41,663 nt of DNA. Origin: Candidatus Peregrinibacteria bacterium. Lineage in GTDB: Bacteria; Patescibacteriota; Gracilibacteria; Peribacterales; Peribacteraceae. Both the position numbers and the translations under genes were made by a program. Of this stretch, positions 7,400 through 36,320 are shown in pieces (within the stretch, counting starts at the first letter, position 1; every line of letters begins with the position of its first letter). The notes beneath the pieces were generated by a model. That model was not told where the DNA came from. It did not search any database and was given only the letters and a program-made list of their open reading frames with translations. Location: NCBI GenBank assembly GCA_030649955.1, contig JAUSFD010000001.1, positions 1 to 41,663 of the forward strand, read 5' to 3'.

Positions 7400-7663
7400 T
7401 TACTTCTTCACGGCGACGAGCTTGCTCACGAGGGATTTCTTCCGGTCAGCGTTGTTGCCGTGGATGATGCCCTTCTTCGCTGCGGTGTCGATCGCCTTGA
7501 AGACCGCGGGCACGATCGCCGTCGCTTCCGCGCTCTTCCCCTCCTTCACGAGATCGGACACTTTGCGCATCATCGTCTTCAAGTGCGTCTTGTAGGGTTG
7601 CCTGCGTGCACGACGCACCTCATTCTGGCGTGCTCTCTTGATGGCGGACTTGATGATTGGCAT
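7400..7663 (-). CDS. rpsT: 30S ribosomal protein S20
   Basis: Primary 16S rRNA-binding protein of 87 aa. It has the S20 pattern: Lys/Arg-rich N-terminus (IKSAIKRARQNEVRRARR), long helices, and the conserved KGIIHGNNADRKKSLVSKL near the C-terminus. The ATG at 7663 was chosen over 7687 because it matches the family start and sits just downstream of a good promoter. First gene of an rpsT-ruvX unit. Confidence 0.95.
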   Translation of the reverse strand: MPIIKSAIKRARQNEVRRARRQPYKTHLKTMMRKVSDLVKEGKSAEATAIVPAVFKAIDTAAKKGIIHGNNADRKKSLVSKLVAVKK

Positions 7664-7704: not shown

Positions 7705-7800
7705 AGAAGGGCAGGAAAGGCAGACAGGGCAGGAAGGGCAGTATGGGAATTACCTTCCTGCCTTTTCTGCCCTCACTGCCTTCCCTGCCTTTTCCCAGGT
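7705..7800. repeat. GGCAGG-type dispersed inverted repeat, copy 1
   Basis: Left half (about 7706-7746) and right half (about 7753-7793) pair at roughly 32 of 41 positions. Each half is a chain of GGGCAGG / AAGGCAG units. It fills the divergent rpsT-glmS gap. Related copies lie at 14834-14936 and 33275-33362. Confidence 0.8.
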
Positions 7801-7846: not shown

Positions 7847-9640
7847 ATGTGCGGAATCTTCGGATACGTCGGCGCGAGGAAGGACGCGGGAATGGTCGTC
7901 ATCGAGGGGCTCAAGAACCTGGAGTACCGTGGATACGATTCGTGGGGTGTCGCCTCGAGTGTCGCGGGGAAGCTCGTCGTCTCAAAGGACACGGGGAAGA
8001 TTAGCGGTGTTGATGCGAAATCTTTCTCCGATGAAAGCACCATCGCGATCGCGCATACCCGCTGGGCAACACACGGGGGCGTGACGCCGAAGAATGCGCA
8101 CCCGCACTTAAGCGAAGACGGCACCATCGCCGTTGTGCATAACGGGATTGTCGAGAACTACCGCGAACTCAAGGAGTGGCTCAGTGAGCGTGGACACACC
8201 TTCATGTCAGAGACGGATACGGAGGTCATCCCACACTTGATAGAGGAGGAGATGAAGAGTGGATCGGACTTCGCCGCGGCGGTGCGCAGAGCTTGCCTCA
8301 AGTTCGAGGGGCGCTTCGCGATCCTCGCGCTCCACACTCCCACGCACACCCTCGTCGCTGCGCGCACGGGTTCTCCTCTCATCGTCGGTGTTTCGAAGAA
8401 GAGTGACGGGAACGCAGAGCAGGGGTACTTCATCGCATCGGATATCCCGGCGTTCCTCAAGCACACGCGCATCGTTCAGTACCTCGACGATGGTGAGATG
8501 CTCGTGACGGATGGGGAGTCGATCCTGTTCTCCGATCTCCATACGGGGGAGGAGCGCCCCAAGCGTGAGATTGAGATCACCTGGACGGTGGAGCAGGCGG
8601 AGAAGGGAGACTTCGAACACTACATGATGAAGGAGATTATGGATCAGAAGGAGAGCGTCGTCCGTGCGGTGAACCAGGACGAGGCGCAGATCATGACGCT
8701 GGCGCAGTCGATCCGCGACGCGCAGGGGACATTCCTCGTCGCCTGCGGGACAGCGGGCAAGGCGTGCATGGCAGCGGAGTACTTCTTCTCTGTCATCGCG
8801 CGGCACCACGTGAACGTCGCCGCAGCCTCTGAGTTCAAGCTCTATCACCACTTCCTGACAGAGAAAAGTCTCCTCGTCGTCGTGAGTCAGAGCGGCGAGA
8901 CCGCGGATGTTCTCGAGGCCATGCGCGTCGCGAAGGCGAAGCGCGCGAAGGTCCTCGCCATCGTGAACGTGGAGGGCTCGACGATCGCACGCGAAGCGGA
9001 CTACACCCTGCGCATCAATGCCGGACCGGAGCGCGCGGTCGCATCGACGAAGGCACTCACCGGCCAGCTCGCGGTCCTCCTCCTCATCGCGCATGCGCTC
9101 GCGGGCAAGCTCCAGGAGGGGAAGACACTCCTCCTCGAGGCCGGTGCCATGATCAACGACATGTTGAATCCGCGCTACATCGAGCGCCTGCGAAAGCTCG
9201 CGGATCGTATTAAGGAAGATGAAGACCTCTACATCATTGGGAAGAGCTGGAACTACCCCATGGCCCTGGAGAGCGCGATCAAGATTCAGGAAGTGAGTTA
9301 CGTGCATGCGGAGGGTTTCGCCGGTGGTGAGCTCAAGCACGGTCCCATTGCCTTGATCGAAGAGGGCACTCCCTGCATTGCCCTCATCGGCAAAGATGAG
9401 GTGATGAGTGACATCCTCAGCAACACCATGGAGTTAAAAGCCCGCGGCGCCACGATCATCGGCGTCTGCCCGGACCGCTACGATGTCTTCGACGAGTGGA
9501 TCAAGGTGCCTGATGCCGGGACCGCCCAGGCGATCGTGAACATCATCCCGATCCAGGTGCTGGCGTACTTCCTCGCCGTGCATCGGGGGAAGAATCCGGA
9601 TATGCCGAGGAACCTCGCGAAATCCGTGACGGTGAAATAG
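7847..9640 (+). CDS. glmS: Glutamine--fructose-6-phosphate aminotransferase (isomerizing)
   Basis: Makes glucosamine-6-phosphate, the first step to UDP-GlcNAc for the cell wall. The ATG at 7847 gives 597 aa starting MCGIFGYVG, exposing the catalytic Cys as residue 1 after Met removal; the open frame further upstream lies in a repeat and is not coding. Glutaminase domain about 1-215 (motifs HTRWATHG, HNGIVENY, SETDTEVI). Two SIS sugar-isomerase domains follow (SQSGETADV, GGELKHGPIALI) with the conserved C-terminus NLAKSVTV. No glmS ribozyme or leader is possible with a roughly 3-nt 5' end. Confidence 0.98.
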   Translation: MCGIFGYVGARKDAGMVVIEGLKNLEYRGYDSWGVASSVAGKLVVSKDTGKISGVDAKSFSDESTIAIAHTRWATHGGVTPKNAHPHLSEDGTIAVVHNGIVENYRELKEWLSERGHTFMSETDTEVIPHLIEEEMKSGSDFAAAVRRACLKFEGRFAILALHTPTHTLVAARTGSPLIVGVSKKSDGNAEQGYFIASDIPAFLKHTRIVQYLDDGEMLVTDGESILFSDLHTGEERPKREIEITWTVEQAEKGDFEHYMMKEIMDQKESVVRAVNQDEAQIMTLAQSIRDAQGTFLVACGTAGKACMAAEYFFSVIARHHVNVAAASEFKLYHHFLTEKSLLVVVSQSGETADVLEAMRVAKAKRAKVLAIVNVEGSTIAREADYTLRINAGPERAVASTKALTGQLAVLLLIAHALAGKLQEGKTLLLEAGAMINDMLNPRYIERLRKLADRIKEDEDLYIIGKSWNYPMALESAIKIQEVSYVHAEGFAGGELKHGPIALIEEGTPCIALIGKDEVMSDILSNTMELKARGATIIGVCPDRYDVFDEWIKVPDAGTAQAIVNIIPIQVLAYFLAVHRGKNPDMPRNLAKSVTVK

Positions 9641-13519: not shown

Positions 13520-13558
13520 GGAGGTGTGCGGGTTTCCTTCCGCTCCCTGGGTGGGAAC

Positions 13559-13620
13559 AGGGAACCGGGAACAGGGGACAGGACTACACCCCGTTCCCTG
13601 ATGCCTGTTCCCGGTTCCCT
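13559..13620. repeat. GGGAACAGG-type hairpin with perfect 17-bp arms
   Basis: Arms 13559-13575 and 13604-13620 are exact reverse complements around a 28-nt loop. Further GGGAACAGG words flank the left arm. It lies in the divergent gap between the PBP gene and the PilB-like gene. Confidence 0.85.
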
Positions 13621-13676: not shown

Positions 13677-14780
13677 ATGCCGAGCCTCGATTTCACCACG
13701 ATGGATGGCGAGACCATGCTCCATACTCTGGAGCAGTACTGCACAGAGAATGGTGCGTCGGACATCCACTTATCGCCGCAGAAGGACGGCGTGCGCGTCG
13801 AGTGGCGATTGCATGGTGTGCTGCGCTCCCTCGCCATCATTCCTCCCGTGCGCTACCAGGATTTCCTCCGCCGCGTGAAGTTCGAGGCGAAGATGAAGCT
13901 AAACCTCACGAACGTTCCCCAGGACGGTCAGTACACGTTCGAGGCGAAGGGGAGAGCAGTGAACATGCGCGCCGCGACGCTCCCCAGCCGCTTTGGCGAA
14001 GCGCTCACACTACGCCTCCTCGATCCGCAGCGGGGCATCCTTCCTCTGGAGAAGCTCGGCTTCCCGGAAGATATCCGCACGAAGCTCGCAACCTTAGTCG
14101 AAATGCCGCACGGCTTGGTCCTCGTTACGGGTCCCACTGGATCGGGGAAGACGACGACTCTGTACGCGCTCCTCTCAACGATTATCGGCAAGGAACGCAA
14201 CATCATCACCCTTGAGGATCCGGTGGAGTACGAGCTCCCGGGGATCATCCAGAGCGAGATCGATGTGGAGCACGAGTACACCTTTGCCAATGGACTGCGT
14301 TCCATCCTCCGCCACGATCCCGATGTGATCCTCGTCGGTGAGATCCGTGATCTGGAGACCGCACAGACTGCTGTGAATGCGTCGCTCACGGGACACCTCG
14401 TGCTCACGACCCTCCATACGAACTCCGCTGTTGAGGCGATTCCGCGTCTCCTCTCCATGGGCGTGAGCCCCTACACGTTTGCACCCGCACTCCGCGCGGT
14501 CGTCGCGCAGCGCCTCATCCGCACACTCACTGATGCTTGCAAGACCGGAGCGACCCCCTGCGACCCCTCTTCCCACGATACCTACGGTGGGCAGATGGTC
14601 CTTCCGGAGCTCCTTACCATCTCCCCCGCGATCCAGCAGCTCATCCTCAACGTCGAGCAGACGAGCACGATCTTCGAGCAGGCGCGCAAGGAGGGCTTCC
14701 GGACGATGAAGGAATGGGGCGATCAGTTCGTCCAGGAGAAGCGTACGACGAAGGAGGAGATAGCGCGGGTCGTGGCGTAG
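13677..14780 (+). CDS. GspE/PilB/PilT-type secretion or pilus ATPase
   Basis: Hexameric motor ATPase of the type II secretion / type IV pilus superfamily, cytoplasmic face of the membrane. At 367 aa it is shorter than typical PilB. N-terminal domain SDIHLSPQKDGVRVEWRLHG (about 28-47); Walker A GPTGSGKTTTLY (about 152-163); Asp box TLEDPVEYELPG; Walker B VILVGEIRD (about 217-225); His box TGHLVLTTLHTNSA. It lacks the tetracysteine zinc motif of many GspE proteins. Motifs match GspE/PulE more than PilT, but assembly versus retraction cannot be decided. The next gene is a surface protein, which may be functionally linked. Confidence 0.9.
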   Translation: MPSLDFTTMDGETMLHTLEQYCTENGASDIHLSPQKDGVRVEWRLHGVLRSLAIIPPVRYQDFLRRVKFEAKMKLNLTNVPQDGQYTFEAKGRAVNMRAATLPSRFGEALTLRLLDPQRGILPLEKLGFPEDIRTKLATLVEMPHGLVLVTGPTGSGKTTTLYALLSTIIGKERNIITLEDPVEYELPGIIQSEIDVEHEYTFANGLRSILRHDPDVILVGEIRDLETAQTAVNASLTGHLVLTTLHTNSAVEAIPRLLSMGVSPYTFAPALRAVVAQRLIRTLTDACKTGATPCDPSSHDTYGGQMVLPELLTISPAIQQLILNVEQTSTIFEQARKEGFRTMKEWGDQFVQEKRTTKEEIARVVA

Positions 14781-14833
14781 AGGCTGCGGTACCATCCTCA
14801 CTATCATTCGTTAGAGCTGTTTCTTTCGAGGAA

Positions 14834-14936
14834 GGGCAGTAAAGGCAGGAAAGGCAGGGAGGGCAATATGTGAGAGACCGGTATGATGTTCGCTGCCCTT
14901 CCTGCCCTTCCTGCCCTGGCTGCCATTGCTGCCTTC
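14834..14936. repeat. GGCAGG-type dispersed inverted repeat, copy 2
   Basis: Left half (about 14834-14866) is a chain of AGGGCAGT/AAAGGCAGG units. Right half (about 14894-14936) is the complement (CTGCCCTTCCTGCCC...). It lies between the PilB-like gene and the FecR-like gene. The 14781-15053 gap otherwise holds only a candidate promoter. Confidence 0.75.
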
Positions 14937-14938
14937 TC

Positions 14939-15053: not shown

Positions 15054-16751
15054 ATGTTGCTACCATCACGTCGCCGGCGGGGGAGCTACCCGGTTGTGTC
15101 GACCCCACGTTCGTCCGGACTCGTCCGCACGGTTGTTGGCGTCGTGCTCGTCGCTGCAGTCCTGTACATCGTCGGCGGATGGTTCCTCTCGTTCCTTGGT
15201 GCCGGAAATGAAATTCGTCGTACGGCAACCACCGTTGACCTCGATGACCGTGGTGCGGTCACCGTTTCCCTCGAGGGAGAGGAGGAACAGCGTGCACAGG
15301 ATGGGATGAAGCTCTACCCGGGCGACTCCCTCGCGACGGGTCCGCAGTCTCGCGCCCTCCTTACGTTCTTCGATAGCTCGGCGTTACGCCTTGAGCAGGG
15401 AACGCACCTCGCGATCACCGAGGCGGCGATGGGCGAGAAGCAGTCAGAACTGGGGGTGGAGCTCAAGGATGGCATGATTTGGATCTCCGTTACTGACGAG
15501 AAGGCGTTCTCCGGAAACATCCTCCGTTTCGTGGAAACTCCCATTGCGTCGTATACACTCTCTCCCCGCACGGAAGCGCTCATCACACCTCGCTCGCTTG
15601 TGGTCTACGCTGCTGATGGACCGGGGATCCTCGTCGAGGTGAAAGGCAGGACAGAGATCCTCATCGGCGAAGGACAGCAGTGGCGTCTTCCTGCGGAAGG
15701 AGAGGTTGCCGCTGATCTCTACGATTACCGCTCACTTCTGCGACCTTCCACTGCTGAATTCGCGTTCACGGAAGAGAGCAGGCGCTCTGTGAGGCGCGGT
15801 GCGAGCGGTGGCGGGCAGCCAGCGCTGGGCGGATCCATGTCCGGAAGTCTTCTGACAGTCAGCTCTCCAGCGGAGGGCGCTTCCATCGAAACGCCTACCG
15901 TCCGCATCACCGGCCGAGTGGGAGAGGGAGTCATGCAGGTGCGGACGAACGGGTACCAAGCTGCTCTCGATCCGGCTACAGGAACCTTCACCCAGGAACT
16001 CTCACTTCCGGATCAGTCAGAGGTCACCATTCACATCGAGGCCCTGGATGCCCTCGGAATGCCGATTGAGCAAATGACGCGCAAAGTCACACGTGTCCTC
16101 GCAACTCTAGAACCGGCGACTATTTCCAGCCCCGCCAAGAATGGCGAGACGTACCGCACCTCCCAGACGGAGCTCATCATCCGCGGCGAAGCTCCGGATC
16201 GCGCTGCCGGCATCATCGTGAATGACTACCGCCTACAGCTCTTCAGTCCAGAGAAGGGAACCTGGAGCTACCTCGCATCCATTGCGCTCGGGAACATGAA
16301 GCAGGGGACGAATACGTACGATGTTGTTGCGATTGATGCCGCGGGCAAGAAGAGCGATCCTGTTCGCCTCACGATCATCGTTGGAGAAGGAACGGAGGGG
16401 GTAGTGAGCAGTGCTCCATCTGCAGGTGCTTCCAGTTCCGTCTCTCTTGCGACGAATGATCCCCTCACTCCTGGTGTCCTCACCGTCATTGGCCCCACAG
16501 CAGGGACTGCCCACACCGCCACTGGGAGCTCCCTTCTCATCGAGGGGACAACCTCCGCCGGTACGGATAGCATCTGGGTGAACGATTATCGTCTCCAACT
16601 CTACGTCGCAGGTAAAACCACCTGGAACTACATTGCCGATGCAGAACTCCTGACGCTCAAGCGCGGGAAGAACACGTATACCATCGTCGCCCGTGATGCA
16701 GAGGGGAAGATTCTCGACAAGTTTGAGTACACGGTGACGTACACACCGTGA
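15054..16751 (+). CDS. Membrane-anchored FecR-like surface protein with repeated Ig-like domains
   Basis: 565 aa. A basic N-terminus and one membrane helix (about 24-48) precede an extracytoplasmic FecR-type region (about 60-215, DGMKLYPGDSLATGPQSRALLTF). Three Ig-like/Gmad2-like modules follow at about 267-350, 355-443 and 475-562. The last two are internal repeats sharing VNDYRLQL...TW.Y.A and GTNTY/GKNTY...A.DA.GK. Likely a cell-surface or wall-associated protein; ligand unknown. It is downstream of the PilB-like ATPase. Start chosen as the first ATG in frame. Confidence 0.82.
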   Translation: MLLPSRRRRGSYPVVSTPRSSGLVRTVVGVVLVAAVLYIVGGWFLSFLGAGNEIRRTATTVDLDDRGAVTVSLEGEEEQRAQDGMKLYPGDSLATGPQSRALLTFFDSSALRLEQGTHLAITEAAMGEKQSELGVELKDGMIWISVTDEKAFSGNILRFVETPIASYTLSPRTEALITPRSLVVYAADGPGILVEVKGRTEILIGEGQQWRLPAEGEVAADLYDYRSLLRPSTAEFAFTEESRRSVRRGASGGGQPALGGSMSGSLLTVSSPAEGASIETPTVRITGRVGEGVMQVRTNGYQAALDPATGTFTQELSLPDQSEVTIHIEALDALGMPIEQMTRKVTRVLATLEPATISSPAKNGETYRTSQTELIIRGEAPDRAAGIIVNDYRLQLFSPEKGTWSYLASIALGNMKQGTNTYDVVAIDAAGKKSDPVRLTIIVGEGTEGVVSSAPSAGASSSVSLATNDPLTPGVLTVIGPTAGTAHTATGSSLLIEGTTSAGTDSIWVNDYRLQLYVAGKTTWNYIADAELLTLKRGKNTYTIVARDAEGKILDKFEYTVTYTP

Positions 16752-19173: not shown

Positions 19174-19260
19174 TTGAACGATCCAGAATTAGGAATTATG
19201 AAGTAAGAATTACGGATAATCGATCGTTCAAAATTCTTCATTCTTACTTCTTAATTCTTC
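19174..19260. repeat. Inverted repeat between divergent rluD-like gene and tyrS
   Basis: TTGAACGATC (19174-19183) pairs with GATCGTTCAA (19222-19231). GAAGTAAGAAT (19200-19210) pairs with ATTCTTACTTC (19240-19250). Serial GAATTA/AAGAAT words fill both halves. It occupies the upstream regions of both divergent promoters. Confidence 0.8.
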
Positions 19261-27386: not shown

Positions 27387-27453
27387 GAAGCGGTGAGCTT
27401 TGAGCTGTGAGCGATGGGGAGACTGCCCGCTCAACGCTCACCGCTCATCGCTT
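27387..27453. repeat. GAGC-unit hairpin between convergent genes
   Basis: Left GAAGCGGTGAGC...GTGAGCGAT and right GCTCAACGCTCACCGCTCATCGCTTC are imperfect complements made of GAGC/GTGAGC units. It probably terminates both the YqfO-like and M23 transcripts. Confidence 0.65.
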
Positions 27454-32682: not shown

Positions 32683-33246
32683 TCAGAGTTTCAGGAAGAG
32701 TGCATGGATCGCCGTCTCGCCCGTGACTTCTGGGTGGAATGTCGATGCGAGGATGCGACCTTGCCGTACGAGAATGGGATCTCCATTGTGCTTCGCGAGT
32801 ACAGAGACACTTTTTCCCATCTTTGTGAACCGAGGCGCGCGAATGAAAGCAACTGTGATCTTCGGGCGAACAACCAAAACGGTGATCGATGCCTCGAAAC
32901 TCTGGTGCTGCGTGCCGTACGCATTTCGCTCGATTGTTGCATCGAGGAGCTTGAGGGAGTGTGGAGGAAGTTTTCCAGTAATCTTCTTCGTGAGGAGAAT
33001 TGCTCCTGCGCACGTGCCGAAGACTGCGAGTGAACCTTCAGCAACTCGTTTCTGAATTCGTTTTCCCATCCCCGTCCGTTCGAGGAATCCTCCCATCACG
33101 GTACTCTCCCCTCCAGGGATGATGAGGTGCGTGAGCGGAGCGAGGTCCTCGAGAGTACGAATCTCTCGAGATTCCACATCCAATGATGCGAGCACACTCC
33201 TGTGCTCCGAGAAATCGCCATGTACTGCGAGGACTCCCACGGTCAT
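32683..33246 (-). CDS. pdxT: Pyridoxal 5'-phosphate synthase glutaminase subunit PdxT
   Basis: 187-aa class I glutamine amidotransferase that supplies ammonia to PdxS. Signatures: VGVLAVHGDFSEH, IIPGGESTVM (oxyanion region), VFGTCAGAILL with the catalytic Cys, and TFHPEVTGE giving the His-x-Glu pair. It lies 119 bp downstream of pdxS, separated by a GGCAGG-type hairpin, and has its own predicted leaderless promoter. The two subunits may therefore be transcribed separately. Confidence 0.95.
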   Translation of the reverse strand: MTVGVLAVHGDFSEHRSVLASLDVESREIRTLEDLAPLTHLIIPGGESTVMGGFLERTGMGKRIQKRVAEGSLAVFGTCAGAILLTKKITGKLPPHSLKLLDATIERNAYGTQHQSFEASITVLVVRPKITVAFIRAPRFTKMGKSVSVLAKHNGDPILVRQGRILASTFHPEVTGETAIHALFLKL

Positions 33247-33274: not shown

Positions 33275-33362
33275 GGAAGGCAGGAAAGGCAGACAGGGCA
33301 GGAAGGGCAGTATGTGAAAATACCTTCCTGCCGTTCCTGCCTTCTCTGCCCTCACTGCCCTT
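33275..33362. repeat. GGCAGG-type dispersed inverted repeat, copy 3
   Basis: A left chain of GGCAGGAAAGGCAGACAGGG units, almost identical to copy 1 at 7711-7746, is followed by a complementary CCTTCCTGCCGTTCCTGCC chain. It fills the pdxS-pdxT gap. Confidence 0.8.
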
Positions 33363-33365
33363 TCC

Positions 33366-36182: not shown

Positions 36183-36320
36183 CAACCGCATTCCATGCGG
36201 AAATCCCAAATCACAAAACCCAAAACCCAAAGAAATCGAAAAGCCAAAATTCAAATTTGGGTTCTGAGTTTTGGTCTTTGGATTTTTCTTTGGTACTTGG
36301 GTTTTGGGTTTTGGTGCTTC
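36183..36320. repeat. CCCAAAA-type long hairpin
   Basis: CAAAACCCAAAACCCAA (36214-36230) pairs perfectly with 36297-36313. Further CCAAAATTCAAATTTGGG and CCAAAG/CTTTGG words pair inward. It fills most of the gap between the zinc ribbon gene and the PhyH gene. Confidence 0.85.

Follow-up and report, generated by a model that had tools for sequence, protein, structure and literature searches.

The STRR heptamers of cyanobacteria are dispersed tandem repeats of short words, REP sequences are built on a stem with a GTAG-type foot, and Rickettsia palindromic elements sit in frame within coding sequences, where they occupy linkers that tolerate extra residues. Published accounts describe dispersed, mostly intergenic arrays of words 7 nt long, in some cases as inverted pairs (PMC4692102, PMC4679880, PMC2700814), in one of which such short-word arrays generally have no association with mobile elements (PMC4692102). 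According to a further account, tandem heptamers lie ahead of the S23 ORF in the 23S rRNA IVS of Coxiella, and the protein XCC0516 is cited as a homopentamer of four-helix bundles (PMC4990558). Avd, of diversity-generating retroelements (DGR), resembles the S23 family, PF05635 (PMC10053308). Apart from the Coxiella heptamers, the portion of the literature covered by our search describes no word arrays flanking S23 genes, and it does not contain the exact string of the motif analysed here.

The window analysed here is a stretch of 41,663 nt from a Candidatus Peregrinibacteria bacterium (contig JAUSFD010000001.1). It contains three hairpins of one common anatomy, in which GGCAGNNAR is repeated four times, a centre that is not symmetric (TATGTGAAATACCTTC) follows and four inverted units complete the hairpin, the consensus unit being GGCAG-N-N-A-R (9 nt) with A as the third spacer base in 203 of 209 units. 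Most left arms of the GGCAG family have four units and many centres are TATGTGAAATACCTTC or near to it, with slight variation in unit number between arms. The 14-mer GGCAGGAARGGCAG, allowing up to two mismatches, has 19 matches in the window against 0.54 expected, all 19 within the three copies, which fold much more stably than shuffled sequences (z -4.9 to -6.9). An earlier note on this DNA had reported a dispersed family with copies at these three places, and all three are present; the hairpins it described are real, but it had not remarked that the period is strictly 9 nt, that each arm counts four units and that an asymmetric centre is conserved, nor that the window has at least four more hairpins made of other words. 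Its placement of copy 3 between pdxS and pdxT agrees with the Pfam identities of both genes. The features are as follows.

7400-7663, minus strand: rpsT (ribosomal protein S20), flanking copy 1 (Pfam PF01649)
7706-7741, plus strand: copy 1 left arm, four 9-nt units (NNAR)GGCAG (sequence; tandem repeats finder, period 9, 4.0 copies)
7742-7757, plus strand: copy 1 centre, TATGGGAATTACCTTC, a variant of the family consensus TATGTGAAATACCTTC
7758-7793, minus strand: copy 1 right arm, four inverted units
7847-9640, plus strand: glmS-like gene (GATase and SIS domains, Pfam), flanking copy 1 in a divergent gap
13677-14780, plus strand: T2SSE-family ATPase gene, upstream of copy 2 (Pfam PF00437)
14831-14866, plus strand: copy 2 left arm, four units
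14867-14892, plus strand: copy 2 centre, a longer variant
14893-14937, minus strand: copy 2 right arm, five inverted units
15096-16751, plus strand: gene downstream of copy 2 (Pfam Glucodextran_B above cut-off, FecR weak)
32683-33246, minus strand: pdxT, split from pdxS by copy 3 (Pfam PF01174)
33275-33310, plus strand: copy 3 left arm, four units
33311-33327, plus strand: copy 3 centre, TATGTGAAAATACCTTC
33328-33363, minus strand: copy 3 right arm, four inverted units, the outer core 6 nt from the pdxS stop codon
33366-34244, minus strand: pdxS, upstream of copy 3 (Pfam PF01680)

UvrA similarity places the host among Peribacteraceae/Peregrinibacteria-like CPR bacteria, its best named relatives being ~80% identical. 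The family was surveyed across the host genome (1.67 Mb, 34 contigs), where a three-unit pattern, GGCAGNNNRGGCAGNNNRGGCAG, with at most one mismatch gave 60 + 55 matches compared with 1 + 1 for the reversed control pattern. Clustering resolved these into 37 sites, 27 two-armed and 10 one-armed, which align as a family; a density of three copies in 42 kb is thus ordinary here. Not one of the 27 two-armed copies is contained in an ORF, though some overlap a gene end, and a rough gene call assigns ~79% of the window to genes. The gaps holding copies are divergent, co-directional and convergent, and in many cases a stop codon is no more than 10 nt away. Four one-arm copies are in frame within large genes, which by our own reading of the sequence encode UvrA, a TraG/VirD4-like ATPase, a glycosyltransferase and a 2-oxoacid oxidoreductase subunit. 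Alignment with relatives indicates that the extra arm residues of the ATPase and the oxidoreductase are specific to the host genome, and the UvrA linker is variable, with other insertions there in relatives. Proteins of relatives (L115, L390 and L396) carry different repeat-like inserts (such as PSTLLRTG and TSSGQA) at the tolerant linkers that hold GGCAG arms here.

Two one-armed clusters (77208-77246 and 77629-77660 of contig C30) flank a single gene and together form a larger element, C30:77208-77660, which we call the parent. The gene encodes an S23 four-helix-bundle protein (PF05635, E 3.5e-31; TIGR02436, E 8e-27) whose nearest solved structure is PDB 2GSC (XCC0516, E 6e-15). The same arrangement with the same word is found in another genus (G054), where the S23 protein is 56% identical to that of the parent. 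As in a 23S rRNA IVS, the stem of the parent is formed by inverted arms and its loop holds an S23 ORF, while the window copies are without an ORF; indeed none of the 27 two-armed copies has one, and their inverted termini are common to this ORF-bearing element of the same genome, as in MITEs, except that the parent gene is S23 and not a transposase. No nuclease activity is known for S23 proteins. The MITE-like reading offered in the earlier note gains from the alignable dispersed family, from junctions without the element in relatives and from the ORF-bearing parent with the same arms. On sequence grounds, the three GGCAG hairpins are gene-less miniature relatives of the S23 element with the same arms. 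There is one GGCAG S23 gene in the host genome as against 27 miniatures, and this sole gene may be inactive.

Flanking word arrays are general among S23 genes. The host genome has nine PF05635 matches, several of them between inverted arrays of AGGGYT, GGATTA, CGTTTATT or TCAGCNN, and in the host genome and its class (Peribacteria) together inverted arrays of 6-9 nt words flank 86 of 93 S23 genes (z>4, a rough value from simple shuffles) but only 1 of 41 window genes. Plasmid S23 genes of other phyla (Cyanobacteria; Gemmatimonadota, sampled in Gemmatirosa; Alphaproteobacteria, in Azospirillum; Bacteroidota, in Riemerella) lie between inverted word arrays in 16 of 18 cases, some within operons such as cas6-S23-cas4. 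Units in S23 arms are 7 (52), 9 (23), 8 (17) or 6 (5) nt long, and the G-rich strand points inward in 91 of 99 elements. Similarity of S23 proteins correlates with similarity of their words, and does so across genomes too (Mantel r 0.33, null sd 0.025); unit length equals that of the nearest S23 from another genome in 82% of cases compared with 37% after shuffling (maximum 53%). Since both word and unit length track S23 lineage, arms and gene constitute one evolving unit, although the correlation between word and protein may reflect plain co-inheritance rather than binding specificity.

Miniatures are not restricted to GGCAG. A second S23 word of the host genome, CGTTNNTT, occurs at one S23 gene and ~30 further loci, and those whose sequence was read have ~4 units per arm and a centre common to several; TCAGCNN has a few miniatures. 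The other-word hairpins of the window are built like the GGCAG copies. One at 13554-13620, upstream of the T2SSE-family ATPase gene and of the same class, has inverted arms of the 7-nt word GGGAACA, which seemingly also occurs in frame in an oxidoreductase protein (NREQGTGNR, L105). Hairpins of an AGAATTA-like and a TGAGCTT/TGAGCGG-like 7-nt word lie at 19186-19258 (intergenic) and 27391-27450 (a convergent gene junction), respectively. Inverted CCAAAAC/TTGGGTT arrays ~65 nt apart at 36203-36314 have the C-rich strand inward, unlike most, and degenerate inverted arrays of 7-nt words (CCAAGCACCAAGCTCC ... GATTTGGAA) are found at 1357-1498. The ends of contigs C30 and C34 (L200 1-120, L202 1630-1759) apparently overlap, and the S23 gene in which they do so itself contains another inserted hairpin (CCCCAGAGCAAGCTCTGG...CCGGAGCAAGCTCCGG), one element nested in another.

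Comparison of related sequences indicates that such elements insert. A 428-bp S23 element of Trichormus variabilis (L327, 720-1180) is absent from plasmids of Nostoc linckia and Microchaete that are 98% identical around it, with GTAAT on both sides of the element and once in the empty site (a 5-bp direct repeat). This is the only clean insertion junction, the others replacing or realigning ~11-42 nt of target. One rRNA copy of Azospirillum lipoferum 4B has, in place of a 19-nt 23S rRNA hairpin found in another copy of the same genome, an S23 element whose arms are heptamer arrays (flanks of 478 and 550 nt, 100% identical). This makes the element a classical IVS, so that IVS have the anatomy of chromosomal S23 elements. 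In the pdxS-pdxT gap (copy 3), several related genera have no element, and further relatives have other-word hairpins in some cases and single arrays in others. The word in this gap ranks first of 101 with the S23 word of its own genome in three genomes (G000, G017, G025); the remaining three of six gaps had no matching word among a partial set of own-genome S23 genes.

These observations bear on whether the arrays are instead binding sites of a host DNA-binding or nucleoid protein in which S23 genes merely land or which they acquire. Conservation per unit rather than per hairpin, together with fixed polarity and number of units, would suit such a protein, and the Geobacter heptamer arrays have been interpreted as sites of a global regulator (PMC2700814). 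Words nevertheless differ among elements of a single genome and track S23 lineage across genomes, the whole element including its arms is missing from near-identical plasmids, and the association of S23 with arrays recurs in several phyla. We consider this explanation unlikely.

Selection for RNA pairing, in the form of a terminator, 3' end protection or an RNase III site, is improbable. It draws on the strong folds predicted for both strands, on the many copies close to stop codons and on the cleavage of rRNA IVS stems by RNase III (PMC4990558). Yet opposite spacers of the GGCAG arms are alike at 0.41, 0.47, 0.95 and 0.27 per position as compared with 0.35, 0.52, 0.93 and 0.36 for random pairs, and no covariation was found between opposite GGCAG units, the spacers of which pair no better than non-opposite or randomly chosen spacers do. 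Mismatches in the A/G columns of GGCAG arms are divided equally between G-U (49) and A-C (49) types, and those of S23 arms nearly so (213 vs 210), a pattern that, with the lack of spacer complementarity, indicates conservation of the unit motif and not of pairing. The transcript-processing element considered in the earlier note gains no support, on the same evidence. Copies are moreover found in divergent gaps, and a scan around the three window copies gave no terminator-like site (GC stem plus U-tract), in agreement with the earlier statement that they are not simply terminators; no Rfam family was matched at these copies. Conservation of the unit motif suggests that the word is recognised in double-stranded DNA, and speaks against an RNA function.

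REP or REPIN-type elements mobilised by a RAYT (Y1 HUH transposase), the other option named in the earlier note, are highly improbable. The GGCAG copies are dispersed intergenic palindromes with mismatches and the genome has two Y1_Tnp genes; against this, neither gene has a GGCAG copy within ~2.5 kb, the arms are 9-nt iterons in fours, unlike the REP stem and foot, and it is an S23 gene that is flanked by the same arms. Formation by slippage with no mobile element is barely credible, for although tandem 9-mers can expand and unit number varies a little, one motif recurs at ~35 unrelated sites with ~4 units per arm and in many an asymmetric centre, and word and centre common to the copies contradict pure slippage. 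A DGR-type reverse-transcriptase partner was also considered and rejected, the host genome having no PF00078 match at E 0.001.

We think it probable that the hairpins are gene-less copies of an S23 mobile element, and that S23 multimers bind the word arrays and mobilise miniatures in trans. The full element would be an inverted pair of tandem word arrays around one S23 gene. S23, a homopentamer in the solved relative, would bind adjacent GGCAGNNAR units along double-stranded DNA, with four in each arm, and when bound would pair the two arms, marking the segment between them for excision or copying to a new site. Miniatures, comprising the arms and a short centre, would be moved in trans by S23 of the same word family. 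We infer the binding from linkage, multimer structure and word specificity, and likewise the DNA-cutting step; the cutting and joining nuclease or polymerase would not be encoded by the element and would presumably be a host or other enzyme, our search having identified no catalytic partner for S23 elements and detected no reverse transcriptase in the host genome. As part of the S23 explanation as a whole, and with the same good likelihood, only intergenic full palindromes survive, and protein linkers tolerate single arms (~12 codons) in frame.

More broadly, with about an even chance of being correct, S23 proteins are sequence-specific 'address readers' of a widespread transposase-less mobile class with inverted short-word-array ends, in which word and protein co-evolve and same-word miniatures spread in trans, so that many unexplained short-word arrays and the rRNA IVS would be products of one class. 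Two old questions would thereby be joined, the role of the IVS S23 protein and the origin of dispersed short-word repeats in bacteria, and the link predicts for each S23 protein a binding site readable from its own flanks. Such elements may account for much of the repeat content of small CPR genomes and be a source of in-frame protein linkers. The association of dispersed short-word arrays with S23 appears to be new with respect to the part of the literature covered, and earlier work may exist.

Among known systems, REPIN/RAYT resemble the present elements in being small palindromes scattered through bacterial genomes, possibly with a partner acting in trans, and differ from them in anatomy and in the RAYT link, which is lacking here. 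Rickettsia palindromic elements share in-frame insertion at tolerant protein linkers but differ in that GGCAG insertions within genes are single arms only and never full palindromes. The S23 family has a likeness to Avd of DGRs, but no reverse transcriptase was found in the host genome. Like the STRR-type repeats, the GGCAG family consists of dispersed tandem words in the 6-9 nt range that are mostly intergenic, and the same holds for the dispersed short-word arrays of Xanthomonas/Nostoc (GGGAATC, GGGGATT), Beggiatoaceae (TAACTGA) and Geobacter (GGACCGG), a likeness of description, with no S23 link in the available parts of those accounts. MITEs are similarly short, gene-less and dispersed, with inverted termini in common with an ORF-bearing relative, whereas here the parent ORF is not a transposase, the termini are iteron arrays and just one junction shows a target duplication. 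The 23S rRNA IVS (Leptospira, Coxiella; Azospirillum lipoferum AZO_p2) have one ORF between inverted arms, likewise encoding an S23 family protein, and the heptamer arms of the Azospirillum IVS resemble those of chromosomal S23 elements. Known IVS, however, lie in rRNA genes, as the Azospirillum element does in 23S rRNA, and RNase III removes them from the RNA, whereas the elements described here are scattered through ordinary genes and the gaps between them, the GGCAG copies all between or inside protein genes, and have gene-less miniatures in tens of copies.
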